Shown here piece by piece: positions 1 through 24,326 of a stretch of 24,383 bases of DNA. This DNA is from a virus: positions 1-24,383 of IMG/VR virus record IMGVR_UViG_3300033146_001659; one strand, given 5' to 3'. Under the pieces are notes generated by a model, which was given only the letters and a program-made list of their open reading frames with translations, was not told the DNA's origin and made no database searches. Position 1 is the first letter of the stretch. Every line of letters begins with the position of its first letter. The translations under genes were made by a program, and so were the position numbers.

Positions 1-183
1 TGTAGGATCCCCGCCGGAGATATTAACAGCCTCCGGCGGGTACATTGCTATCTTGTTAGCAATTGCAAGTATATCTTTACTATCGGTAATCGGATCGGTG
101 GCACAGCCAGCCGAACCACAATAGTCACAATTGTTATTACACTTAGTTGTAATTTCCCAAATTATTTCTTTTAAGTCTAACAT
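1..183 (-). CDS. Radical SAM enzyme, N-terminal part (runs off window)
   Basis: The first 61 residues are present; the rest lies beyond the left edge. Residues 15-22 carry the radical SAM cluster motif C-x3-C-x2-C (KCNNNCDYC), which binds a 4Fe-4S cluster that cleaves S-adenosylmethionine. The motif ISGGDPT near residue 58 fits the family's GGE/GGD SAM-binding strand. A second CGSAGC stretch follows directly. The ATG at 183 overlaps the TGA of the upstream nucleotidyltransferase by one base (TGATG) and has AAGGAG eight bases ahead, so the two are probably translationally coupled. The substrate cannot be told from this fragment; small phage radical SAM proteins include QueE-like and anaerobic NrdG-like enzymes. 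Confidence 0.8.
   Translation of the reverse strand, partial: MLDLKEIIWEITTKCNNNCDYCGSAGCATDPITDSKDILAIANKIAMYPPEAVNISGGDPT
10..40. repeat. GC-rich inverted repeat inside the radical SAM gene
   Basis: CCCGCCGGAG (10-19) and CTCCGGCGGG (31-40) are perfect 10-base reverse complements separated by 11 bases. It is far richer in G+C than its surroundings. It lies in coding sequence (around PPEAVNISGGD), so it may be incidental. Confidence 0.6.
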
Positions 184-1157
184 CAAAAATTCTCCTTGCT
201 TAAATGTTTAAATGTGTTAGTTTTAATAAACTCGTTAACTGCTGTACGATCAACATGTTGCGGCAAATTAGATTTTACTGAGAGATGTTCGATATCATCC
301 AACATCACTTCAACCTTGTTGATTACAAATTCAAAATCAAATTCACCTTGTTTAATTTGCCTAAGTAGCACAGCATCTTGTAAAGGAAACGTTAGGTCAC
401 TAGTTTGAAAAATTTCTTTAATCTGGCAACCTGCTCTTAAAGCGTGTGACATAGCCTTCCAATCGACTCCTTCGTTGTTCTTAGCAGCAATCGCTCTGTG
501 TCCGTATGCATCATAAAACTTCTCTACCATTTCCAACGAGTAACCAATCTTGTTAGTTGCTTGCATCATTTTCCCACAAAAGTTAAACATTTGCAGTTTT
601 GGCGCAACGCCCTCATTAGGTACGTGTTTCATATTATCGTCAATTGGCAATTCTTTCCACACTGCTTGCATTCTAGCGTCAGGATCGAATTGTTTCAAAA
701 AGTTAATCATGCACTCAGCTGAATTAAGCCTGCTACCTTTTAGTCCATACTTTGCAGCCTGCTTTCTGGCGTATCCGACAAATGCTCTCATGTCGGTGGT
801 GTAGAACATACGGCGCATGGCAAAGATATCTTCCCACAGTTCGGTAGTCTGGATAATATTGTCCATGTTAGCATGTAGCATATCGATAGCAATCATCTCA
901 CCCTTGCAAGCCAGTTCCATAAAATAATGGAATGAGTATAGCTCGCAGTCGATATCATCAGCACCGTTCTTCTCACTCCCTGGATTAGAATCGAAGTTAA
1001 TAGTTTTAGGAATCTTACCTAGCAGGATCTGTTCCGCAGTAGGCATAAAGATACCTTTGTAATCGGTGTCGCTTTCCGGAGTATCGGTTCCGTAAAGATG
1101 CGACCCAAATTTCGTCAGCATAATTACGTTGTGTTCTTTTAATAGTTCTTCAATCAT
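183..1157 (-). CDS. Predicted nucleotidyltransferase (pol-beta superfamily, YcgL/COG3541-like)
   Basis: The 324-residue protein carries the superfamily signature near its N-terminus: FGSHLYGT (G18-S19) followed by SDTDYKG (D30, D32), i.e. GS-x10-D-x-D, the nucleotide- and metal-binding residues. The rest looks helical, as in predicted nucleotidyltransferases of large T4-like phages. The acceptor substrate is unknown; related enzymes modify RNA ends, antibiotics or proteins. The ATG at 1157 overlaps the preceding gene by four bases (ATGA) and has AAGGAAG upstream. It sits in the same leftward unit as an HD-polynucleotide kinase and a metallophosphoesterase, so a role in nucleic-acid end repair or modification is plausible but inferred. 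Confidence 0.75.
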   Translation of the reverse strand: MIEELLKEHNVIMLTKFGSHLYGTDTPESDTDYKGIFMPTAEQILLGKIPKTINFDSNPGSEKNGADDIDCELYSFHYFMELACKGEMIAIDMLHANMDNIIQTTELWEDIFAMRRMFYTTDMRAFVGYARKQAAKYGLKGSRLNSAECMINFLKQFDPDARMQAVWKELPIDDNMKHVPNEGVAPKLQMFNFCGKMMQATNKIGYSLEMVEKFYDAYGHRAIAAKNNEGVDWKAMSHALRAGCQIKEIFQTSDLTFPLQDAVLLRQIKQGEFDFEFVINKVEVMLDDIEHLSVKSNLPQHVDRTAVNEFIKTNTFKHLSKENF

Positions 1158-1372
1158 TGTTCTACTTCCTTACTCAGCGGTGGCGGAACTTGTATCATTT
1201 TTGACTGATACCGCTCCCCTGCTAAAATTTGTTTATGTACCATTGAATTGATTGAATAAAAATGATCCAATTTACTAATCTGACAGCGTGGGCACGGATA
1301 ATTGTGAGCTGCTGACAGATACGTTATATGCTCTAGTTTATAATTACAAGTTGGACAATATTTAGAATTCAT
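1154..1372 (-). CDS. Small zinc-ribbon-like protein
   Basis: A 72-residue protein with two CxxC pairs (CPTC near residue 6, CPRC near residue 27), the spacing expected of a zinc ribbon. The remainder is polar and ends in a Pro-rich segment (QVPPPLSKE). The ATG lies just after the TAA of the metallophosphoesterase and has AAAGGA upstream. It overlaps the nucleotidyltransferase by four bases, so the two are probably co-translated. I do not recognise a named family; nucleic-acid binding is a guess from the Cys pairs. Confidence 0.65.
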   Translation of the reverse strand: MNSKYCPTCNYKLEHITYLSAAHNYPCPRCQISKLDHFYSINSMVHKQILAGERYQSKMIQVPPPLSKEVEQ

Positions 1373-1374
1373 TT

Positions 1375-1866
1375 TTATCCTTTCACACGCTGTACAATCT
1401 CATCAATGTGCATAGGAGTATAATTTATAGCCTCAACCGACACATTAAAGTACGGGCCTTCTGGACTTGGGTTCTGATGAATATGACCGTGACAATTCAC
1501 CAGCAACGGAGTATCACTATCTGGCGGTCCTCTGCGTAGTGAACTAGGATGCAACGGCACATGACTAAACATCAATCCATATTCCGGAAACATTCTCCAC
1601 ATTTGTATTTTCTGAAAAAAGTTCCCTTTAGCCAAGAATTTGATATCGTCGTGATTACCAACAATCAATCGTTTGCTACCGTGTAGGCGATTAAAGAATG
1701 CGGAAAATTTTTCTTTATCTCCAAAGAACACATCGCCGAGATGATATACTCTATCACCTGGTTTAACAACACTGTTCCATCGTTCCAAAATGTATTCGTT
1801 CATCTGCGTTATATTGTCAAACCCTGGGCGTATTGATTCACCAGTATTCGAGTCAGTAAATTTCAA
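1375..1866 (-). CDS. Calcineurin-like metallophosphoesterase with disrupted 5' end
   Basis: The frame carries most metal-binding motifs of calcineurin-like phosphoesterases: HLGDVFFGD, VGNHDD, FSHVPLH and NCHGHIH. The first motif (SDTHFFH, giving the N-terminal Asp and His ligands) is not joined to it. In the same frame FFHENILKF can be read upstream of the given TTG start (1866), but that frame is closed by a TAA at 1908-1910. The missing start occurs twice in other places or frames: at 2858-2914, beyond the HNH gene, and at 1889-1939, ending in TGA. The TTG at 1866 has no good ribosome site. Either the gene is broken, or it is expressed by frameshifting or an unusual start. The fold assignment is strong; activity is doubtful. 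Confidence 0.7.
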   Translation of the reverse strand: MKFTDSNTGESIRPGFDNITQMNEYILERWNSVVKPGDRVYHLGDVFFGDKEKFSAFFNRLHGSKRLIVGNHDDIKFLAKGNFFQKIQMWRMFPEYGLMFSHVPLHPSSLRRGPPDSDTPLLVNCHGHIHQNPSPEGPYFNVSVEAINYTPMHIDEIVQRVKG

Positions 1867-1873
1867 GATGTTC

Positions 1874-1914
1874 TCGTGAAAAAAGTGGTCAATGTGTGTC
1901 AGAAATTACCCAAA
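1874..1914. repeat. Direct repeat copy 1 flanking the HNH gene
   Basis: This copy shares TCGTGAAAAAAGTG (1874-1887) and ATTACCCAAA (1905-1914) with the copy at 2871-2904, about 997 bases away. On the minus strand both encode WVISDTH, the first motif of the metallophosphoesterase. This copy has seven extra bases between the two shared blocks. Confidence 0.85.
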
Positions 1915-1939
1915 TGTTTCTACGGATATTCTGACACAC
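1889..1939 (-). pseudogene. Second, truncated copy of the phosphoesterase N-terminus
   Basis: A GTG at 1939, six bases after AGGAGG (inside the end of the HNH gene), opens a 16-codon frame: MCQNIRRNIWVISDTH, then TGA. The last seven residues are the first metal-binding motif of the phosphoesterase downstream. Compared with the copy at 2858-2914 there are seven extra bases after the motif, which put it out of frame with the rest of the gene. An ATG at 1941 (TAATG with the HNH stop) uses the phosphoesterase frame but meets TAA after 11 codons. Confidence 0.6.
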
Positions 1940-1942
1940 ATT
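1891..1942. repeat. 14-base perfect inverted repeat over a translation start
   Basis: AATGTGTGTCAGAA (1891-1904) and TTCTGACACACATT (1929-1942) are exact reverse complements with a 24-base spacer. In the leftward mRNA the 5' arm covers the ATG/GTG just after AGGAGG at the end of the HNH gene, so folding would hide the start codon of the downstream frame. No T-run follows, so it is not a standard terminator. Confidence 0.8.
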
Positions 1943-2840
1943 AAACCTCCTTTCTGAACCATTGTTTACCATGTTGGTAATCCTTTATTAGTTGTAGGCA
2001 GATTTCATGTTCTACCCAATTAGTATACATTGTGTGTTGAATATTATGAAATAATTTATTTAATGTAATCGAGTCTGAATGTATAGTTGCAGACGTGTTT
2101 TTTCTAACATTGTCTGCGTGTAATATTATGTTGCAATTTTCCGGGTGTCGCATAATTTCAGGAAACACGTTTGCTTCAAATCCGCTTCGCCTTGAAAATG
2201 CATGATCTCGGACAACACCTTTGGTATTGTTAAATGCATTAAATACCCCGTGTTCGATTAATAATTTATTTGATTGTCCTTGCATTATATCGAACATCGG
2301 AGCAATCCAGTTGCTATCTTTAAAATATATAGCATAATCTGATTTGCTGCTGGTCGGAATCCAGTATCCTAATTCTTCCATTTTAAGTCTAAATTTTTGT
2401 TTATATTCGTCTGTAAATTTTGCTTTACTTTTTTTACTTATTGTTGCTAGGGTCTCTGCCGAATGTCCATTTACACCAACACCGTATGAATCAGGGCTGC
2501 GATGATCATGCATAGCAGAAATTCTTTCTTTAGAGAATGTTTTTCCTCTGTTAGCAGAGCCTGCTCGTTTGCGGTAGTTATCGTTTACTTTAGATTTTAT
2601 CAAACATGATTGGGCCACTTTTTGCGAATGGGACCAGGTATTGCCAAAATTTGGATTATTTTCTCCTTGTTGCGTTATAGATAAATATTTCCCCTTGCAT
2701 TCGGCTGAACATGTTTTTTTATTTTTAGTAGGAACTCCGCATATTACACAAGGCGAAAATTTACATGTGCTACTACAAAATTTTTTTTGTTTGTAATTTG
2801 TTTCAAATTCTGCCCCACATACGATACACACTTTTTTCAT
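1941..2840 (-). CDS. HNH-type homing endonuclease with two N-terminal zinc fingers
   Basis: The 299-residue protein starts with two Cys4 fingers (C5-x2-C8...C22-x3-C26 and C31-x2-C34...C44-x3-C48). A NUMOD-like linker follows (GENNPNFGNTW near 59-69; more Gly/Ser/His-rich repeats to about 130). The C-terminal domain has RDHAFSRRSGFE (D212, H213) and RHPENCNI (H232, N235) with a later HADNVRKN, the H-N-H arrangement of phage beta-beta-alpha-metal nucleases. The start has AAAAAGGA upstream and a GATAAATA late-promoter-like motif. The gene sits between two copies of the phosphoesterase 5' end, as expected for a mobile endonuclease gene inserted in a coding sequence. Confidence 0.85.
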   Translation of the reverse strand: MKKVCIVCGAEFETNYKQKKFCSSTCKFSPCVICGVPTKNKKTCSAECKGKYLSITQQGENNPNFGNTWSHSQKVAQSCLIKSKVNDNYRKRAGSANRGKTFSKERISAMHDHRSPDSYGVGVNGHSAETLATISKKSKAKFTDEYKQKFRLKMEELGYWIPTSSKSDYAIYFKDSNWIAPMFDIMQGQSNKLLIEHGVFNAFNNTKGVVRDHAFSRRSGFEANVFPEIMRHPENCNIILHADNVRKNTSATIHSDSITLNKLFHNIQHTMYTNWVEHEICLQLIKDYQHGKQWFRKEV

Positions 2841-2857
2841 ATTGCGTCCTTTTTATT

Positions 2858-2866
2858 TTATTTATC
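2858..2866 (-). promoter_or_regulatory. Late-promoter-like motif for the HNH gene
   Basis: On the minus strand GATAAATAA lies 18-26 bases before the HNH start codon. It resembles the T4 late promoter TATAAATA and the GATAAATAC motifs on the plus strand of this window. It also supplies the last codons and stop of the interrupted phosphoesterase fragment. Confidence 0.5.
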
Positions 2867-2870
2867 TCGA

Positions 2871-2904
2871 TCGTGAAAAAAGTGTGTATCTGATATTACC
2901 CAAA
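2871..2904. repeat. Direct repeat copy 2 flanking the HNH gene
   Basis: Shares TCGTGAAAAAAGTG (2871-2884) and ATTACCCAAA (2895-2904) with the copy at 1874-1914. On the minus strand it encodes VISDTHFFH in one open frame. Confidence 0.85.
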
Positions 2905-2918
2905 GATTTTTCATGTTG

Positions 2919-3155
2919 TTACATATCTTTCCAGGAAATAATTTTTGATAGTTCTGACGTCATGCCGCCGAGCTCAACAAACCGTGCATTAATTCTATGC
3001 ATCAGCATAGCTTGGAAATTGCACATTTCGTTAAAATTGTCTTTGCCTAAGAAGTTCACGCCAGGTGATGGCAAATATCGATACCACCGAGCAATTTGTA
3101 TTCTATCAGCAGTTTCGATTTCATCCGATGTTGGATATTTCATATTAAGGTTCAT
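2919..3155 (-). CDS. Conserved small phage protein, function unknown
   Basis: A 78-residue soluble protein. The segment YPTSDEIETADRIQIARWYR, followed by LPSPG, resembles a short protein I associate with large marine and T4-like phages, but I know no function for it. The start (MNLNMKYP) has GGAG seven bases upstream and overlaps the previous stop by four bases (ATGA). The second Met (MKYPTS) is a possible alternative start. No transmembrane segment, Cys cluster or nuclease motif is visible. Confidence 0.7.
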   Translation of the reverse strand: MNLNMKYPTSDEIETADRIQIARWYRYLPSPGVNFLGKDNFNEMCNFQAMLMHRINARFVELGGMTSELSKIISWKDM

Positions 3156-3328
3156 TTTTGTACTCCGTATTTCGCAATTGCAGCATCGGCAATTTCTTTA
3201 TACAAATCTCGCTGTTCGACAAGAGTTTCAATATATGCCTGTTGTTCAGCAATGATTTTATCTTTGGCACTTTTAGTATCTGCCAATCTTGCCATTTTCT
3301 TCAATAAGTATGCACAATACTCGCTCAT
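3152..3328 (-). CDS. Small coiled-coil-like protein, unknown
   Basis: A 58-residue protein beginning MSEYCAYLLKKMARLAD. I chose the ATG at 3328 because GGAGG lies seven bases upstream; the frame is open for 34 more codons with no ribosome site and would overlap the membrane-protein gene. The sequence is mostly charged helix (KDKIIAEQQAYIETLVEQR), compatible with a short coiled coil. No family recognised. It overlaps the next gene by four bases. Confidence 0.65.
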   Translation of the reverse strand: MSEYCAYLLKKMARLADTKSAKDKIIAEQQAYIETLVEQRDLYKEIADAAIAKYGVQK

Positions 3329-3341
3329 AATGTTTCCTCCG

Positions 3342-3533
3342 TTATTTGCGGGTGTTCCATATATCCGTAATGCCGGAAAAATATGGAGTAAAGTCTTCTT
3401 TGAATTTGTCATATACTGCAAATGGCGCAATTAGTATACACCATCCGCACACTAATCCAAAGAATATAAACGTCAAGCAAAATACATGCAGTGTTGGATA
3501 TTGTTTCATCCAGTCAATGAACCTATCAAACAT
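3342..3533 (-). CDS. Small single-span membrane protein
   Basis: A 63-residue protein with a hydrophobic stretch at about residues 17-41 (LHVFCLTFIFFGLVCGWC then ILIAPFAV), long enough for one transmembrane helix. A basic/amphipathic N-terminus (MFDRFIDWMKQY) comes first and an acidic tail after. The ATG at 3533 has AAGGAG eight bases upstream; the longer frame to 3599 lies inside the kinase gene and has no such site. It overlaps the end of the HD-kinase gene by eight bases, so translation is probably coupled. Function unknown. Confidence 0.65.
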   Translation of the reverse strand: MFDRFIDWMKQYPTLHVFCLTFIFFGLVCGWCILIAPFAVYDKFKEDFTPYFSGITDIWNTRK

Positions 3534-4632
3534 TTTTCTCTCCTTTGGAGTAATCGAACAAGTAATTAACTTCGCCTTCATTACTAAATGGCATATCAAA
3601 CAACTTCATCATGTTATTGAATACGAAGTCCGGAATAATCTTCCCTGTTCGATTATCGTTCCGCTTGCAAATAATTTCCCAGTCTGTCAAAAACACAGTT
3701 ACTTTAATATTAAAACCTGCTTGTTTTGCTCTGTTAATAAATTTCATTCTACCTTTGTGAGTAAGATTAGTTCTATTAACAAAGAATGATTCGCCTTCTT
3801 TAATGTATTGTTCGAATGTTTCTGCAAATTCCTTATCGACCATTTTCTGATCCACATTGCGGAAAGCAACTGAGTATGAGTCGCCGTTTGCGTATTTCAT
3901 CAAAATATCATCACGTGACACGCTCTTAGCTTTGAACCATTCGTTCTCTAAGTAAGTGTCTTTGCCTGAGCAAGGTAGTCCAACTAACACATTCATAAAT
4001 GGAGCACCGTTTTTAGGTTGTTCTTTTTTGGAACGTTGAATGTTAAATTTGATTGTGTTAATTTTTTCGTAGTTGACATTGTCAGCACAGTCTGAAATAT
4101 TGCCTAAGTAATCAGCATTTCGTAATATAGCAACATCTTCTAGCAACCAATAATCGCCGACAAATTTCGCCGACAATTTTTCGATAGCTTTATTGCCAGC
4201 TTTTTTATCAACACTAAACAACACTTGATGATAATTAATCAACTTCAAAATATAAATTTTATCTTCGTATGTAAGAGTGTTGTCTAATTCAAAAATCATC
4301 TTATGTGCAATGATAGTACCAGCCCCGTCGTGTCCATTAAAATTAACTCTGCCATCTTCCTGCACCACTCGCGACATAGGCTTACCGACATCGTGCAGTA
4401 ATGCAGCAATAAACATTCTTTTGAAATGTGTATCGATTTCCCAATTGCCTTCATATTCTGCGTAAATTTGGGAGACAACCATCATAGTGTGAGTCCACAC
4501 ATCACCTTCCAAGTGCCATTTGGATTTGAAACCTGGGCCACTATGGTCGCTATTTTTCATAGCATTTACAGCGTCTGGGTAAAGTGTCTTAAATTTGTCG
4601 ATTACATTATAACCGTATTCTTGGATATTCAC
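3526..4632 (-). CDS. HD-Pnk: HD-domain phosphoesterase fused to polynucleotide 5'-kinase
   Basis: The 368-residue protein has two domains. Residues 40-175 form an HD phosphohydrolase domain (H48, LLHDVGKP with H80-D81, NGHDGAG with H101, and a later D). Residues 212-368 form a P-loop kinase (GLPCSGKDT 218-226, SRDD 239-242, an Arg-rich lid RNDNRTGK). This order matches bacterial HD-Pnk end-healing enzymes such as that of Runella, in which the HD domain removes 2',3'-cyclic or 3' phosphates and the kinase phosphorylates 5'-OH ends. I choose the GTG at 4632: AGGAG lies eight bases upstream, whereas the ATG at 4641 overlaps that site and upstream starts precede the predicted transcript. No ligase is adjacent; a ligase-like protein lies at 11108. 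Confidence 0.85.
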   Translation of the reverse strand: MNIQEYGYNVIDKFKTLYPDAVNAMKNSDHSGPGFKSKWHLEGDVWTHTMMVVSQIYAEYEGNWEIDTHFKRMFIAALLHDVGKPMSRVVQEDGRVNFNGHDGAGTIIAHKMIFELDNTLTYEDKIYILKLINYHQVLFSVDKKAGNKAIEKLSAKFVGDYWLLEDVAILRNADYLGNISDCADNVNYEKINTIKFNIQRSKKEQPKNGAPFMNVLVGLPCSGKDTYLENEWFKAKSVSRDDILMKYANGDSYSVAFRNVDQKMVDKEFAETFEQYIKEGESFFVNRTNLTHKGRMKFINRAKQAGFNIKVTVFLTDWEIICKRNDNRTGKIIPDFVFNNMMKLFDMPFSNEGEVNYLFDYSKGEKNV

Positions 4633-4663
4633 TGATATCATCTCCTGTATTAAGTTTAACAGC

Positions 4664-4692
4664 AGTATAACACCATGATTAAGGAAAGTCAA
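4664..4692 (-). promoter_or_regulatory. Sigma70-type promoter of the leftward operon
   Basis: On the minus strand TTGACT (4692-4687), a 17-base spacer and TATACT (4669-4664) lie just upstream of the HD-Pnk gene. It is back to back with the rightward promoter at 4706. Confidence 0.8.
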
Positions 4693-10062: not shown

Positions 10063-11111
10063 TACCACATAAATTTAGTTTATCAGATCGTGAAGAATTA
10101 ACACTATTACAGCAAGAAATTAATAACAGGTCATTTAAAGTTACTGACGTTGCATTACTTAATAAAGTGTTGAGTTTATTAAGAAAATCAAACATTAGCA
10201 ATATTTCTAGGATGGCATTTAATAAAGATTCTGATGGGGCAAAATTTGTTAATCGCCTGTCGGAAATAATAATTGGGTTACCGGTTCCGCTAAATGAAAA
10301 AGTAGAATTTCTACGCAATTACGGCCGTACAAATTATATTGATGCTCTAAAATTATTTGATGGCACCGGCGAAATCAGATCTATGAAAGATTGGTGGACT
10401 GGGTCAGGCATGGCAACAATTATGTTTAAAATGATGATAGATGATCCTGAATTAGTTGGCAAACGAGCAGGTGATGCTGGCCCCGGCGAAGTAGCAATAG
10501 CGGTGTTTCATCGAGATATCGAAGTAGGCACCAATGCAGCCAATGGCTATGATTTACGATATAAATCAGACGAAATTGAAGTCAAAACAAAAGCATCTGA
10601 AATAAGTTCGTCGGGTGGCGGTCGTTGGACATCATATAATGCAGAACCGTTATTAACATATGCAAATTCTAGTAATAGTTTATTAGACCCGGCATTAATA
10701 CCAAAAAAGGTAAATATTAGCTCCACTGGACGAAAAGTTATAGGGTTAGCTGCGGTATTATCTGACCCTCAATATCTTAAAGACCCAGATACCCTGTTAA
10801 CAGTAGCACAGCAAAAATATATAGTGCATCAAGTTTTGAAGATGTCATACCCAGGAGCACCTGATACCGTAATCGAAAAGGCAGTATCGGCATATCCACA
10901 TATTAATGCCACTACTATTGCACCAGCAGCGTTTGAGAGTTATAAAGCTAAACAAAAATTTAAATCAATGTTATTCATGAAAGTAGCCAAAGGAACAGTA
11001 CAAACTATGCATTTTACGGATCTTAATACAGTCATTGATAAATTAAAATTAGGTACATTATATGTTTGCGGCGAGCAACGGGGAATGAGTTTACAGGTAA
11101 CAATACGATGA
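10059..11111 (+). CDS. PD-(D/E)XK-like protein, putative nuclease
   Basis: A 350-residue protein. Residues 141-180 read GPGEVAIAVF (E144), GYDLRYKS (D165) and EIEVKTKAS (E174-V-K176), the E...D...E-x-K series of restriction-like nucleases, followed by a Gly-rich SSSGGGRW loop. The N-terminal third is helical; the C-terminal half has no motif I recognise. It has no MR-type peptide although it lies between two tagged genes with four-base overlaps. It may be a head-associated DNA-processing enzyme or unrelated to packaging. The fold call needs profile or structure comparison. Confidence 0.55.
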   Translation: MIPHKFSLSDREELTLLQQEINNRSFKVTDVALLNKVLSLLRKSNISNISRMAFNKDSDGAKFVNRLSEIIIGLPVPLNEKVEFLRNYGRTNYIDALKLFDGTGEIRSMKDWWTGSGMATIMFKMMIDDPELVGKRAGDAGPGEVAIAVFHRDIEVGTNAANGYDLRYKSDEIEVKTKASEISSSGGGRWTSYNAEPLLTYANSSNSLLDPALIPKKVNISSTGRKVIGLAAVLSDPQYLKDPDTLLTVAQQKYIVHQVLKMSYPGAPDTVIEKAVSAYPHINATTIAPAAFESYKAKQKFKSMLFMKVAKGTVQTMHFTDLNTVIDKLKLGTLYVCGEQRGMSLQVTIR

Positions 11112-12232
11112 GAATTAGTGAAATTTTAACAGAAGCAGCAAAGCCTAAAGTAGGACGCAGTTTACAACATGCTGAAGATTTAGTTATTGTAGATGGGTCG
11201 ACTGGAGCAATGCGGGCATTGGAACACCTCGAACAATTAGCAACATCAGTTGATGATGTAACTATTAAGTTTGACGGCAGTCCTGCTGCATACTTTGGAC
11301 GCAACGAAGCTGGCCATTTTGTATTAACTGACAAGTCGGGCTTTATGGCAAAAGGCTATGACGGCAAAGTAACTGCTCCTGAATCATTAAAGGATATGCT
11401 ATTAAGTAGAGGCAAAGTTGCACCTGATGATAGTAGAAAGCAATTTGCTGGAGCAATGGCAAGTTTATGGGATAAGTTCGAATCGATAGTTGACCCGTCA
11501 TTCAGGGGATATTTATTTGGCGATTTGTTGTATTTTGACACGCCACCTAAGAACAAACATAATGAATTTGAATTCACGCCAAACACAGTTACATATGAAA
11601 TACCAGCAGATACCGATTTAGGAAAACGTATTGCTAACTCGAGTGCAGGTATTGTTGTTCATCATCATATCGATTATGCAGGCACCGAAACGCCAATCAA
11701 AGGGCCAACTAAAGGCATCAAACTAAATAACGGTGTATTAGTAGTCGGTCCAACAACGATAGCCGAAACGCCAGACATTGATTTAGATGGTGTAAACGAT
11801 GCCAAAAAATATGTACAACAACACGCATCAGCAATTGATACGTTGTTAGACGATGCCAAGCTCGCCGCCAACAAAATGAGTGATTTCAAAGCTATATTAT
11901 ATAAGTTTGTTAACCAGCAAGTCAAGACACACGACTTAACGGACCTCAACAATAAATTTGAAAAATGGTTAGAGAGTTCAAAGGTATCGAACAACAAGCA
12001 GACAAAAATATTAGAATACCGTGCAACACAATCGCAAGGTTTTGTAGCAATTTTTGCCACATTAGAAAAGATAATGAAACTCAAGGATCAAGTGATAGAG
12101 AATATGGATTTAGCTAGTCCAATAAAGTCCAGTATAAATGGTGAACGAGGGGGCGAAGGGTATGTCAAAGGTGATATCAAGTTAGTTCCACGAAGTAAGT
12201 TCACCGCAGCAAACATAGCCAAGCATTCTTAA
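11108..12232 (+). CDS. Polynucleotide ligase-like protein with capsid-targeting-like peptide
   Basis: A 374-residue protein. The ATG at 11108 is chosen because it overlaps the previous stop (ATGA) and yields MRISEILTE-A, the shared peptide with an ideal T4-type cleavage site; the longer frame from 11066 only adds residues inside the upstream gene. The body carries covalent nucleotidyltransferase (ligase) motifs: IKFDGSPA (K54-x-D56-G57, motif I), YLFGDLLYFD (motif III-like), GIVVHHH, and near the C-terminus GEGYVK with IKLVPR (motifs IV/V-like). These enzymes form a lysyl-AMP and seal RNA or DNA ends. I think it belongs to an uncharacterised phage family (possibly DUF6267). Head packaging is inferred from the peptide. 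Confidence 0.7.
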   Translation: MRISEILTEAAKPKVGRSLQHAEDLVIVDGSTGAMRALEHLEQLATSVDDVTIKFDGSPAAYFGRNEAGHFVLTDKSGFMAKGYDGKVTAPESLKDMLLSRGKVAPDDSRKQFAGAMASLWDKFESIVDPSFRGYLFGDLLYFDTPPKNKHNEFEFTPNTVTYEIPADTDLGKRIANSSAGIVVHHHIDYAGTETPIKGPTKGIKLNNGVLVVGPTTIAETPDIDLDGVNDAKKYVQQHASAIDTLLDDAKLAANKMSDFKAILYKFVNQQVKTHDLTDLNNKFEKWLESSKVSNNKQTKILEYRATQSQGFVAIFATLEKIMKLKDQVIENMDLASPIKSSINGERGGEGYVKGDIKLVPRSKFTAANIAKHS

Positions 12233-19049: not shown

Positions 19050-19766
19050 ATGCAAACATTCACTCCACCTGCGTTCAACGAACGTTTCGACTATCGCGGC
19101 TGTAAACAGATAAATGACAAAGTAACTCGCAAGCGTGTATACCTCACGCCCGACGGTGAAAAACTTCCCTCTGTAACAACCATCCTAAGTGCAACAAAAG
19201 ACATGACCCATTTAAATGAATGGAAAAAGCGTGTCGGACATGCCAATGCACAACGTATCGCATCTGAAGCAGCCGGTGTTGGTACAGCAATGCATAACAA
19301 CCTCGAACGATTTATGGCAGGGCTTGAGCGCATGCCTGGAAAAAATCCTGTACACGTCAAAGCCAACGCAATGGCTGATCAAATCATCTTACACGGATTA
19401 ACTGATGTTGATGAAGTATGGGCAATTGAGCAGAGCTTGTATTTTCCCGGATTATACAGTGGAACAACAGACCTTGTATGTGTATACAAAGGCAACCCCT
19501 GCATTGCAGATTTTAAGCAAACAAACCGCCCTAAAAAGCCAGAGTGGGTAGAGGATTATTACCTTCAGCTGATGGCATATACGTTAGCACATAATGAAGT
19601 GTATGGTACTGATATCCGTGAAGGGCATATTTTTATGTGTTCACGTGGTGATGATAGCTTAATGGTTGGTGGCGAGCAATATCAACAATTTGATTTGAAA
19701 GCTGATGATTTCAACAAATATGAAGATATGTGGTTAACCAAAGTTGAGGAATATTATGCCCCTTGA
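19050..19766 (+). CDS. RecB/MGME1-like PD-(D/E)XK exonuclease
   Basis: A 238-residue protein with the motif series of RecB-type single-strand exonucleases: GVGTAMHNNLE (H82), WAIEQSL (E127), YSGTTDLV (D141), IADFKQT (D154-x-K156) and YYLQLMAY (Q173, Y177). H, E, D, D-x-K and Q-x3-Y in this order define the Cas4/MGME1-like group, which cuts DNA ends in recombination or genome maintenance. T4-like marine phages commonly carry one. Length is normal for the group. The ATG has no ribosome site and shares ATGCAAACA with the two previous genes, so it is probably translated from the upstream transcript. Confidence 0.85.
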   Translation: MQTFTPPAFNERFDYRGCKQINDKVTRKRVYLTPDGEKLPSVTTILSATKDMTHLNEWKKRVGHANAQRIASEAAGVGTAMHNNLERFMAGLERMPGKNPVHVKANAMADQIILHGLTDVDEVWAIEQSLYFPGLYSGTTDLVCVYKGNPCIADFKQTNRPKKPEWVEDYYLQLMAYTLAHNEVYGTDIREGHIFMCSRGDDSLMVGGEQYQQFDLKADDFNKYEDMWLTKVEEYYAP

Positions 19767-20637: not shown

Positions 20638-22245
20638 ATGGCGGTTGTGCAAATTAGTCGAATACAGTTGAGAAGAGGCCAAAAGAATTCAGTAAGCGGA
20701 ATTCCTCAATTAAGTTCCGCCGAAATGGCATGGGCAGTTGATGCTCAGGAATTATATATCGGAAATGGTTCTGTAGCCGAAGGTGCTCCGTATGTAGGCA
20801 ACACAAGATTATTAACAGAGCATGAAAATATATTAGCCCTTATTTCAAGTTATCAGTATGCTGCTGACGATTTGGCAATGGCTCAATATACTGTTGATCG
20901 TTCGATTCAAAGTAAATTAGATGAACATGTAAGCATTGCGGATTTTGGTGGTTATCCTGATACTGAAAATATTGCGGAAATATTTAATAATGCGTTAACA
21001 CATTTATATTCGGGTACATTAGATTCAAAATATAAAAAAGTTTTAACAATACCAAATGGTACATACACATTTGAAGCCGATTTACATATTCCGAGTGATG
21101 TTATCTTGCGTGGCGAAACACCGTTCGGAGTTGTATTTGATATTGGTGAGCATAATATCAAATTTACTTCATCTGATGGGTTAGCGTTTGAAAATATTAA
21201 TAGTGAAAATTATCCTCAACATGTAAATATATCTAATATCATCATTAACCGCACAACAGGACAATTAATATTATCCGGACTTAAACATAGTACATTTAAT
21301 GACGTGATGATACAAGGCGGATACACGTTAGACACTGTATTATCTAATCCGTTCGACGAAGTAGCAGCATTAGGTTGGGAAAACATAGGGGCATCTATAA
21401 ACACAACAGATATCATATTTAATAGATGTTTATTTGTTGGGAACAGTATAAGTATTAGAGTTATAAATTCAGTCAACAATGATTCTACCATACGATTTAA
21501 TGATTGTGAATTTGTTGATAATTATTTCGGAACACTAGTAGATGGAATACCAAGCCAAGGAACATTTTGGACATATAAGAATTGTACCTTTGAAAAGATA
21601 TACCGTCAAGCATTCAAATCAACAGCAGGAAAAGGTACAGTAATTCGCAATTCGACATTTATCAAAGTAGGAAATGGAGCAGGACTTTCAATGTATCCTG
21701 TATACCCAATGGTCGAATTTGGCGAACGTGCTGGAAACATAGTAGTAGACTGTTATGGTGATCGAATGCAACATGCAAACGTTCAACCAACATCAAGCAT
21801 ATATGCAATACCTGAAGTTCGCAATAGTGACACGGTGTCATTTCTAGACAAACTAGTTGCAACTTTTAACTTAACAGATACACTTATTCCGTTTGCAGTG
21901 TTGTCGGCTAGTGAAAACATATATACGATAAATTATGTTGTTAGGTTAGGAGAATTATATAGAAAAGGGCAATTGACAATTGCCATTGGTAATACTGTCA
22001 ACCCAGGAAACGAAGATATATCAATATTTGATAATTTTACGTGTTCGCCTAATCTTTCACTTACTCCAGCCGGAATTGTCATATCAAACCTCCAGTTGTC
22101 GATAAGTATTCATGATAACAATTCAGACGGAATAAATGATACAATTGCACTATTATATCGGAATGATATAGAACATATAATAAATGAAATTAGCACATCT
22201 GGAATAACTGGCGATATATCATTTGATATATCATATGGAAATTAA
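20638..22245 (+). CDS. Tail fibre/tailspike with N-terminal attachment domain and beta-helix
   Basis: A 535-residue protein. Residues 1-60 (ISRIQLRRGQ, LSSAEMAWAVDAQELYIGNG, EGAPYVGNT) form the RRG...ELYIGNG domain common at the start of phage tail fibres and baseplate-bound proteins. Residues 95-400 are pectate-lyase-like beta-helix repeats: short strands with N-x-T/F patterns (IIINRTTGQLILSG, IIFNRCLFVGN, IRFNDCEFVDN, WTYKNCTFEKI, TVIRNSTFIKV). The C-terminal 130 residues are a beta-rich tip, likely for receptor contact. DFGGYPD near 100-106 resembles the DFGA motif that begins such helices. It is preceded by a late promoter and GAGGAG. Whether it cleaves polysaccharide is not visible. Confidence 0.85.
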   Translation: MAVVQISRIQLRRGQKNSVSGIPQLSSAEMAWAVDAQELYIGNGSVAEGAPYVGNTRLLTEHENILALISSYQYAADDLAMAQYTVDRSIQSKLDEHVSIADFGGYPDTENIAEIFNNALTHLYSGTLDSKYKKVLTIPNGTYTFEADLHIPSDVILRGETPFGVVFDIGEHNIKFTSSDGLAFENINSENYPQHVNISNIIINRTTGQLILSGLKHSTFNDVMIQGGYTLDTVLSNPFDEVAALGWENIGASINTTDIIFNRCLFVGNSISIRVINSVNNDSTIRFNDCEFVDNYFGTLVDGIPSQGTFWTYKNCTFEKIYRQAFKSTAGKGTVIRNSTFIKVGNGAGLSMYPVYPMVEFGERAGNIVVDCYGDRMQHANVQPTSSIYAIPEVRNSDTVSFLDKLVATFNLTDTLIPFAVLSASENIYTINYVVRLGELYRKGQLTIAIGNTVNPGNEDISIFDNFTCSPNLSLTPAGIVISNLQLSISIHDNNSDGINDTIALLYRNDIEHIINEISTSGITGDISFDISYGN

Positions 22246-22428: not shown

Positions 22429-22716
22429 ATGTTAGTAGAATCACAGTTAACAAAAGATGACGTAGTAAGTATTAAATTATCATCAGGAGAAGAACTCGTT
22501 ACCCGTTATGAAACTTGCAATGATAACGTATATCGGGTAAAACACCCGATGTTATTAATTGCACGACAAGAAGGGTTAGGACTTGCTCCTTTCATGTTTT
22601 CAGTAGTACCAGACGCAACGTTTGAATTAAATGTGCGCAATGTATTATGCATAATGAAAACAGAATCAGAATTAGCAAAACAGTACAGATCACAAACGTC
22701 TGGATTAATACTCTAA
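22429..22716 (+). CDS. Sm-like (LSm/Hfq-fold) small protein
   Basis: A 95-residue protein. The first half reads DVVSIKLSSGEELVTRYETC then VYRVKHPMLL: a strand, a Gly turn and bent strands as in the Sm1 motif of LSm proteins. This resembles Sm-like proteins of T4-like marine phages. The second half (FMFSVVPDATFELNVRNVLC) would complete the barrel, ending in a polar tail. Such proteins may form RNA-binding rings; partner RNAs are unknown. AGGAGT precedes the start. Assignment from pattern only. Confidence 0.6.
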   Translation: MLVESQLTKDDVVSIKLSSGEELVTRYETCNDNVYRVKHPMLLIARQEGLGLAPFMFSVVPDATFELNVRNVLCIMKTESELAKQYRSQTSGLIL

Positions 22717-23272: not shown

Positions 23273-23944
23273 ATGAAACGATTTGTTATAGTGGGACTGT
23301 TAATAGGACTTATGGTATTATCCGGATGTTCGAACGCAGCAAAAACAGCAAGCCAGCAAGCGAATTATAATAGCTATCTTGCTCAGGTTGATTCAGCAAA
23401 TGCAGCAAAAGCCGCAAACAACTTAGTTGACATTGAATTTGCATATGGTCAAGATGGTACGATGTTAGGCATTAAGAAATTAAATGTCAGTCAACCATAT
23501 GAGCCGATTGTGCCGAGAATGTACGCCCAACAGTATCATCCAGCGTGGAGTATTTTTGGAAAAGTTGCAACAGCAGCAATCAACGTATCGCCAGCAATCT
23601 TAACACCGTTGGCATATGGAAAAGCGTTTACGGGTGTATTGGAGGCAACAACAGGTGCAGTCACAACATATAACGACAGTTATAATACTGCTGGTAATGA
23701 TTATGCTGGTAATGATATGGCAAATGCCGTTGCCGGAGACACAATTACATCAGGCGATACGATCACATCAGGAGATACCTCCGGGAATGATCTATATAGT
23801 GCCGGGAATGATTTGAGCACCACATCAAGTGCTGATGCTGATAGTTCAATTACTGCTGGTAATGATTATGCTGGTAATGATTACTATCCGGATTCGTCAA
23901 CGGATACATCAGATAACAGTACAACAACAGCAGCAATACCTTAA
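23273..23944 (+). CDS. Lipoprotein with Ala-Gly-Asn-Asp repeats
   Basis: A 223-residue protein with a lipoprotein signal: MKRF, a hydrophobic stretch and lipobox LSGC (16-19), so C19 would be lipidated. Residues 20-135 are Ala-rich and include a hydrophobic YHPAWSIFGKV segment. Residues 138-223 are low-complexity repeats (AGNDYAGND twice, TITSGD twice, SAGND), rich in Asp, Ser and Thr, ending in Thr/Ala. It has a strong ribosome site (AAGGAGG). It could be an outer-membrane exclusion or lysis (o-spanin-like) lipoprotein, but it is longer than typical o-spanins and not nested with an i-spanin. Function unknown. Confidence 0.75.
   Translation: MKRFVIVGLLIGLMVLSGCSNAAKTASQQANYNSYLAQVDSANAAKAANNLVDIEFAYGQDGTMLGIKKLNVSQPYEPIVPRMYAQQYHPAWSIFGKVATAAINVSPAILTPLAYGKAFTGVLEATTGAVTTYNDSYNTAGNDYAGNDMANAVAGDTITSGDTITSGDTSGNDLYSAGNDLSTTSSADADSSITAGNDYAGNDYYPDSSTDTSDNSTTTAAIP
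23686..23716. repeat. 31-base direct repeat, copy 1
   Basis: Starts TACTGCTGGTAATGATTATG and is identical over 31 bases to 23851-23881. It is in the same frame and encodes TAGNDYAGND in the lipoprotein. Confidence 0.9.
23851..23881. repeat. 31-base direct repeat, copy 2
   Basis: Identical to 23686-23716, 165 bases apart (a multiple of three), so recombination between copies would delete or add 55 residues without a frameshift. Confidence 0.9.
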
Positions 23945-23952
23945 CATTAATT

Positions 23953-23985
23953 CCGCACAGTAACAGTTTGAATGTTACTGTGCGG
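23953..23985 (+). other. 13-base perfect hairpin between the lipoprotein and tmRNA genes
   Basis: CCGCACAGTAACA (23953-23965) pairs with TGTTACTGTGCGG (23973-23985) around a seven-base loop. No T-run follows, so it may be a processing or stabilising hairpin at the 5' side of the tmRNA precursor, or a terminator of the lipoprotein transcript without a U-tail. Confidence 0.7.
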
Positions 23986-23989
23986 GAAT

Positions 23990-24256
23990 CAAGTTATCAT
24001 TGTATGATGTGATATAAAATTAATTTTGGACCGGGGTTCGATTCCCCGAATCTCCACCAGGAGTGCATCGCAATAGTTGTGCATTGCTGATGGGGATTAT
24101 CGGTTTCGACAGGGTTAAGAGTAATTGATACTGACAATGCGACAGGGCGATGGTTGTCGTTAAAATGCGCAATGTAATAAATGCAAACTACGGTTTCGCA
24201 CTCTCTGCGTAAGTAGAGCGAGGCAGTTATGCCTTGTCATCCAAAATAACAATAAG
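23990..24256 (+). ncRNA. ssrA: Circularly permuted tmRNA (acceptor part before coding part)
   Basis: The tRNA-like 3' part comes first: T-arm CGGGG-TTCGATT-CCCCG (24032-24048), acceptor strand AATCTCC, then A-CCA (24056-24059). A 32-base intervening segment follows, then the 5' part GGGGATTATCGGTTTCGACAGG from 24092. GGGGATT (24092-24098) pairs with AATCTCC (24049-24055) over seven pairs with one G-U. 24112-24126 pairs with 24018-24032 as helix P2, with some wobbles and mismatches. A GCGACA/TGTCGT pseudoknot-like stem precedes the tag reading frame; CTCT/AGAG and GGCA/TGCC hairpins follow it. tmRNA with SmpB frees ribosomes stalled on broken mRNAs and tags the product. Outer ends are approximate. 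This two-piece format is known from alphaproteobacteria and cyanobacteria. Confidence 0.92.
24183..24212 (+). other. tmRNA tag reading frame: ANYGFALSA, stop
   Basis: GCA AAC TAC GGT TTC GCA CTC TCT GCG TAA. The resume codon GCA follows TAAAT, and the first residues (A-N) match common bacterial tags. With the Ala carried by tmRNA the tag would be AANYGFALSA. It ends LSA rather than the usual LAA recognised by ClpXP. Confidence 0.85.
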
Positions 24257-24285
24257 AGCTCATATTTAGGTATGGGCTTTTTTTT
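24257..24285 (+). terminator. Rho-independent terminator of the tmRNA gene
   Basis: AGCTCATA (24257-24264) pairs with TATGGGCT (24271-24278; one G-U) around a six-base loop and runs into eight T residues. Confidence 0.9.
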
Positions 24286-24297
24286 GGAATAAAATGG

Positions 24298-24326
24298 TTG
24301 ACATTGCTTAGGTATGATGCTATACT
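24298..24326 (+). promoter_or_regulatory. Sigma70-type promoter for the last gene
   Basis: TTGACA (24298-24303), a 17-base spacer and TATACT (24321-24326). It leaves a leader of about 24 bases before the ATG at 24357. Confidence 0.85.

Follow-up and report, generated by a model that had tools for sequence, protein, structure and literature searches.

Identification and anatomy of the permuted tmRNA gene

The tmRNA is an RNA that rescues stuck ribosomes and adds a tag to the incomplete proteins they carry. Near the end of a virus record from IMG/VR (24,383 bases, analyzed as a whole and referred to herein as the window), a first-pass annotation had proposed a phage-encoded, circularly permuted gene for this RNA, which raises the questions of whether such a gene is really there, whether it is likely to work and whether it belongs to the phage or was taken from a host. 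The first of these can be answered plainly, as positions 23998-24281 are a permuted tmRNA gene. In the Rfam scan, RF01850 (beta_tmRNA) matched 23955-24281 with 107.6 bits (E 3.3e-32; curated gathering cut-off 84 bits) and RF04321 (tmRNA_permuted) matched 23998-24212 with 103.4 bits (cut-off 47 bits), both models being covered from end to end. Independently, ARAGORN called a permuted tmRNA* at 23967-24303 with the tag ANYGFALSA, and the precursor (23990-24285) folded with -102.7 kcal/mol vs -73.1 +/- 5.0 in shuffles (z = -5.95).

The arrangement of the parts is that of a two-piece molecule (Table 1). The tRNA-like 3' part, with its T-arm and CCA, lies upstream and is followed by 32 nt and then by the 5' part, which begins with GGGGATT; all seven acceptor pairs (7/7) form in GGGGATT/AATCTCC. 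In these points, the first-pass description of a phage-encoded gene, permuted and two-piece by design, agreed with ARAGORN, Rfam, the origin of the record and the base-pair check. For the P2 helix that it had also described, the agreement was partial: the helix is present in the covariance-model alignment, but the duplex alone exceeded shuffled strands in stability only modestly and not significantly (-13.3 vs -9.3 +/- 2.6 kcal/mol, 8% of the shuffles being as good), so that P2 is a predicted helix supported by the covariance model and not by its own energy. A second ARAGORN call, a one-piece tmRNA at 23771-24059 with the tag VQQQQQYLNINSAQ, was rejected because it overlapped the upstream coding sequence, reused the same T-arm and had no covariance-model support. 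The Rfam scan detected no riboswitch family anywhere in the window.

Table 1. Features of the permuted tmRNA gene and of the genes around it (positions in the window)
Feature	Position	Strand	Evidence or remark
Acceptor piece (P2 3' strand, T-arm, acceptor 3' strand, discriminator A, CCA)	23998-24059	+	RF04321 and RF01850 alignments, base-pair check; 5' end is an alignment boundary, putative
T-stem CGGGG/CCCCG, loop TTCGATT	24032-24048	+	
Acceptor 3' strand AATCTCC	24049-24055	+	
ACCA (discriminator A, then encoded CCA at 24057-24059)	24056-24059	+	
Intervening segment, 32 nt, between CCA and 5' GGGG	24060-24091	+	
Coding piece (GGGGATT, D-loop region, P2 5' strand, resume region, tag, 3' helix)	24092-24250	+	RF01850 match to 24281; 3' end approximate
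Acceptor 5' strand GGGGATT	24092-24098	+	
D-loop region GGTTTCGACA (listed as GGTTTCGAC in the coding piece)	after the acceptor 5' strand		
Tag frame GCA AAC TAC GGT TTC GCA CTC TCT GCG TAA (ANYGFALSA*)	24184-24213	+	ARAGORN, sequence
Terminator-like hairpin, then T run	24255-24281	+	Fold; RF01850 3' hairpin aligned to 24281
PD-(D/E)XK exonuclease gene, marker for finding kin	19050-19766	+	phrog_298, E 6.6e-50
Fibre-like protein, weak Mtd_N (major tropism determinant) match	20638-22245	+	PF18454, E 3.7e-5, below cut-off
95-aa protein, unknown function	22429-22716	+	phrog_527; third in the conserved order
RNA-repair-like cluster (RlaP-type nucleotidyltransferase, phosphoesterase, HD plus polynucleotide-kinase protein)	183-4692	-	

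The acceptor stem keeps the discriminator A and the G3-U pair (G3-U70), which is what alanyl-tRNA synthetase reads as alanine identity. This pair was present also in relatives whose retrieval relied on the covariance model rather than on a pattern requiring G3-U70. Compared with the commonest acceptor stem of related genes, GGGGGTG/CACCTCC, the stem in the window is changed on both sides at pair 5 (G-C to A-T) and at pair 7 (G-C to T-A), differences that are best described as compensatory changes. The spacing from acceptor to D-loop is one base below the model. The intervening segment, whose length in related genes ranges from 5 to 120 nt, is predicted to fold as a hairpin that stacks on the acceptor stem, and to be cut out later.

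By consensus scan, no strong promoter proper to the tmRNA was found upstream, and the same kind of scan missed the terminator-like hairpin. Just upstream of the gene, at 23949-23988, is a near-perfect inverted repeat of ~17 bp (ATTCCGCACAGTAACA...TGTTACTGTGCGGGAAT) with no T run on the + strand, and the ORF directly 5' of the tmRNA (23273-23944) carries repeated AGND motifs, such as TAGNDYAGND. Just 3' of the tmRNA terminator and ahead of the next gene, a near-consensus promoter was observed at 24298-24326 (TTGACA-17-TATACT, with TG before the second hexamer).

A conserved position in a group of phages

Besides the genes listed in Table 1, the window includes virion proteins (PHROGs and Pfam scans). 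The exonuclease gene retrieved 422 related stretches from IMG/VR, the best being 81% identical. Among 36 related records, 34 of them reached via the exonuclease and two via the protein at 11066-12232, half (18) had a tmRNA_permuted match above cut-off; absence in the remaining ones says little, since many are short fragments. Gene order was compared in those fetched loci in which ARAGORN calls a permuted tmRNA and a related exonuclease (45% identity or more) is also present. In 23/23 of these loci, the tmRNA lies downstream of the exonuclease and on the same strand, and in 22 of them the block runs from the exonuclease through the fibre-like gene and the 95-aa gene to the permuted tmRNA, counts that include near-identical pairs and loci of the same record, the independent cases being fewer. 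The distance between exonuclease and tmRNA is 4.2 kb in the window and 7.6 to 13.6 kb in the 23 loci of its kin. The permuted tmRNA is, in these relatives, a fixed member of a gene block, which shows it to be a stable gene with conserved synteny in one phage group rather than a chance pick-up.

The tmRNAs of related phages vary in their details. In the record of a near relative (229,675 bp), the tmRNA (L212, 1501-1710) has the acceptor stem GTGGGAG/CTCCTAC and ends in ACTA where ACCA would stand, so that the CCA apparently is not encoded. Six others (L210, L214, L217, L218, L219 and L221) have an altered D-loop region (ATCGATT for TTCGACA) or T-loop, and that of L217 also shows T-arm-like hairpins inside the intervening segment.

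An unusual tag ending

The tag frame of the window gene is open, begins with Ala and has its own stop. Among the matches listed in the first viral set, the tag of the window included, 49 of the 54 distinct permuted tags end in AA, the usual ending being LAA; LSA is found only in the window (1/54 among these matches), and another of the 54 listed ends in VGG and may be a miscall. In related phages, the tags run from 8 to 31 residues, with the place of the gene fixed. Those of L204, L205, L210, L190, L012 and L055 are 26 to 31 residues long and share the core FTGN(T/S)V.

Since the final residues LAA are the main contact of ClpX in E. coli, the LSA ending may change the rate at which ClpXP removes tagged proteins, perhaps toward weaker degradation; it could mean either decay or a changed role. 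A tentative reading, which we regard as rather doubtful, is that, in this lineage of large phages, the phage's own tmRNA gene has stayed in place while its tag was repeatedly rewritten, so that tagged proteins would be handled unlike those tagged by the host. If so, they might, for example, be spared or routed to another protease. The varied tags at one fixed locus are in any case a ready series in which to test what a phage gains from a tmRNA of its own.

Type and ancestry

Of the three subtype models, RF01850 (beta) was the only one reported for the window. An Rfam scan of 17 permuted tmRNAs from related phages gave 10 that pass the beta model, two that pass the alpha model weakly and five that pass the general permuted model only. 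The earlier suggestion that the gene may point to the host lineage is partly supported, the best model for the window being betaproteobacterial and its kin being split (n = 17). Judged by model type only, Betaproteobacteria are a reasonable guess for the host lineage.

In a tree of 117 permuted genes, the window gene fell in a viral-only set (12 rows, 100/98) on a long branch of 0.56 changes per column, its highest identity to another row being 63%. When long branches were removed, it belonged to no supported (starred) set, and in an AU test its grouping with 24 sampled bacterial genes was not rejected (p 0.093), two results with which descent from a particular host would be compatible. As an exact pattern, the acceptor variant of the window was absent from 84,980 species genomes, and neither this variant nor the tag DNA had another exact copy in IMG/VR or the species genomes, diverged copies being possible.

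Bacterial genomes were also fetched for permuted tmRNAs with a short segment. A strong one-piece tmRNA (185-226 bits) was present too in 7/8 of them, namely three of Stenotrophomonas and one each of Roseateles, Herbaspirillum, Variovorax and Gallionellaceae (G037-G042 and G044; loci L246, L256, L265, L245, L247, L258 and L243), and the eighth, a Rhodocyclaceae genome (G043), had the permuted form only. In the Gallionellaceae MAG (L273, G044:C56, 1247-2230), a one-piece gene (ANDEKYALAA) is followed after 283 bp by a permuted gene (ANDENFAMAA), and the 3' end of the one-piece gene is repeated (CCCCGCCTCCACCAA) between both genes, resembling the attachment site of an integrated element.

Proposed function and alternatives

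We conclude, with a probability of about 0.85, that the window carries a complete and probably working permuted ssrA of beta type, which belongs to the regular gene complement of a group of large phages, themselves distant relatives of the Mimasvirus/RaK2 jumbo phages. Starting from the anatomy, type, kinship and gene order observed here, and from the absence of SmpB in the searched records, we infer how the RNA would be processed, charged and used, and the anatomy fits the standard tmRNA route. A single precursor would be transcribed, and the 32-nt segment would be removed by host tRNA-processing enzymes, with RNase P acting at G24092 and a 3' tRNA nuclease near A24059. The two pieces, held together by the acceptor stem and P2, would be charged by the host alanyl-tRNA synthetase via the G3-U pair. 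A search of 13 records (the window and 12 related ones, possibly incomplete) gave no SmpB gene, with control genomes positive, and thus host SmpB is presumably used. With it, the tmRNA would enter stalled ribosomes, add Ala plus ANYGFALSA and bring about release. The likeliest benefit would be a continued supply of free ribosomes in the infected cell, where mRNAs are being cut by phage nucleases and by host defences. The long branch, the LSA tag end, the energetically weak P2 and the lack of a strong promoter in the upstream scan count against a working gene.

Some of these same features would suit a different role, that of a decoy, in which the phage RNA would occupy SmpB or stalled ribosomes, tag inefficiently and so block trans-translation by the host. 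There is a precedent in mycobacteriophage DS6A, whose tag-less, tRNA-like RNA is reported to inhibit the endogenous tmRNA (PMC11915505, PMC4131195), and both the unusual tag end and the long branch would be in line with it. In the window, however, the tag frame, the resume region and the charging features are intact, and the relatives keep a tag frame for which a decoy would have no need. Such a role is possible, and in our judgment unlikely, as it leaves the intact tag unexplained. Decay, by which the gene would still be recognizable with its processing and use lost, could likewise account for the long branch and the low similarity to all other genes, and also for the acceptor-to-D-loop spacing of one base under the model. 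The compensatory acceptor pairs argue against it, as do the T-arm, the CCA, the tag frame and the 3' hairpin, all of them intact, and we consider it quite improbable.

The remaining alternatives concern origin. A host ssrA might have been captured recently, for instance when a prophage integrated in it was excised imprecisely, and have no function for the phage; integration at ssrA is common, the gene is of betaproteobacterial type, and the AU test does not reject its grouping with the bacterial genes. Nevertheless, the shared position and strand downstream of the exonuclease in all related loci with both genes, the viral-only grouping in the first tree and the failure of the exact acceptor pattern to match any species genome all speak against a recent event, as does the result that no integrase match was found among the window proteins scanned (PHROGs, Pfam), and we consider capture very improbable. 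The first-pass annotation had also raised an independent permutation in phages. For this there is only the phage location and the divergence of the gene, whereas the break point, the domain order and the model, matched from end to end, are those of known permuted genes, with which the sequence also groups. With a usual break point and a betaproteobacterial type, the idea is unsupported, and we hold it to be scarcely credible.

Comparison with known systems

Two-piece phage tmRNAs are already known (PMC9004378) and are common in IMG/VR, and the gene in the window is therefore no first. They make up 53 of the 133 unique phage tmRNA structures in the Melnitz paper (PMC9004378), and a database from 2025 lists 79 unique tmRNA sequences from phages, all forms taken together (PMC11915505). 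In IMG/VR, one degenerate pattern retrieved at least 119 stretches and, among the matches listed, ARAGORN called 118/119 permuted. What makes the window gene of interest is its conserved position and its odd LSA tag.

Among isolates, the closest by exonuclease are the Mimasvirus/RaK2-like jumbo phages (GAP32, CBB, Munch and XbC2; ~350 kb), with 43-45% identity. The search of six isolates of this kind or related to it, including the four just named, gave no permuted tmRNA and no one-piece tmRNA above cut-off. A structural gene in the window, itself a 24-kb fragment, is similar to one of Vibrio phage 2.275.O. The tmRNA of Stenotrophomonas phage DLP6 (KU682439.2), at L002 3974-4195 (102838-103059 of the record, where it has no annotation), is likewise phage-borne and permuted, and passes both the permuted and the beta models, but it has the tag ANDDSFAPMAIAA, starts a tRNA cluster and aligns with just 26% of the query, at 75% identity. 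Melnitz and other aquatic phages (PMC9004378) share with the window a phage-encoded, permuted tmRNA that is proposed to serve the phage in infection; that of Melnitz, however, is of alphaproteobacterial type and has a glutamine riboswitch, whereas the window gene is of beta type, with no riboswitch family found.

The gene in the window also resembles the betaproteobacterial permuted tmRNA (RF01850, merged RF04321), which has the same part order, the same break point between CCA and the 5' GGGG, a 7-pair acceptor with G3-U70, a T-arm, P2 (predicted in the window by the covariance model), a resume region, a tag and a 3' hairpin. Unlike it, the gene in the window is encoded by a phage, has the stem GGGGATT/AATCTCC and specifies a 9-residue tag that ends in LSA.
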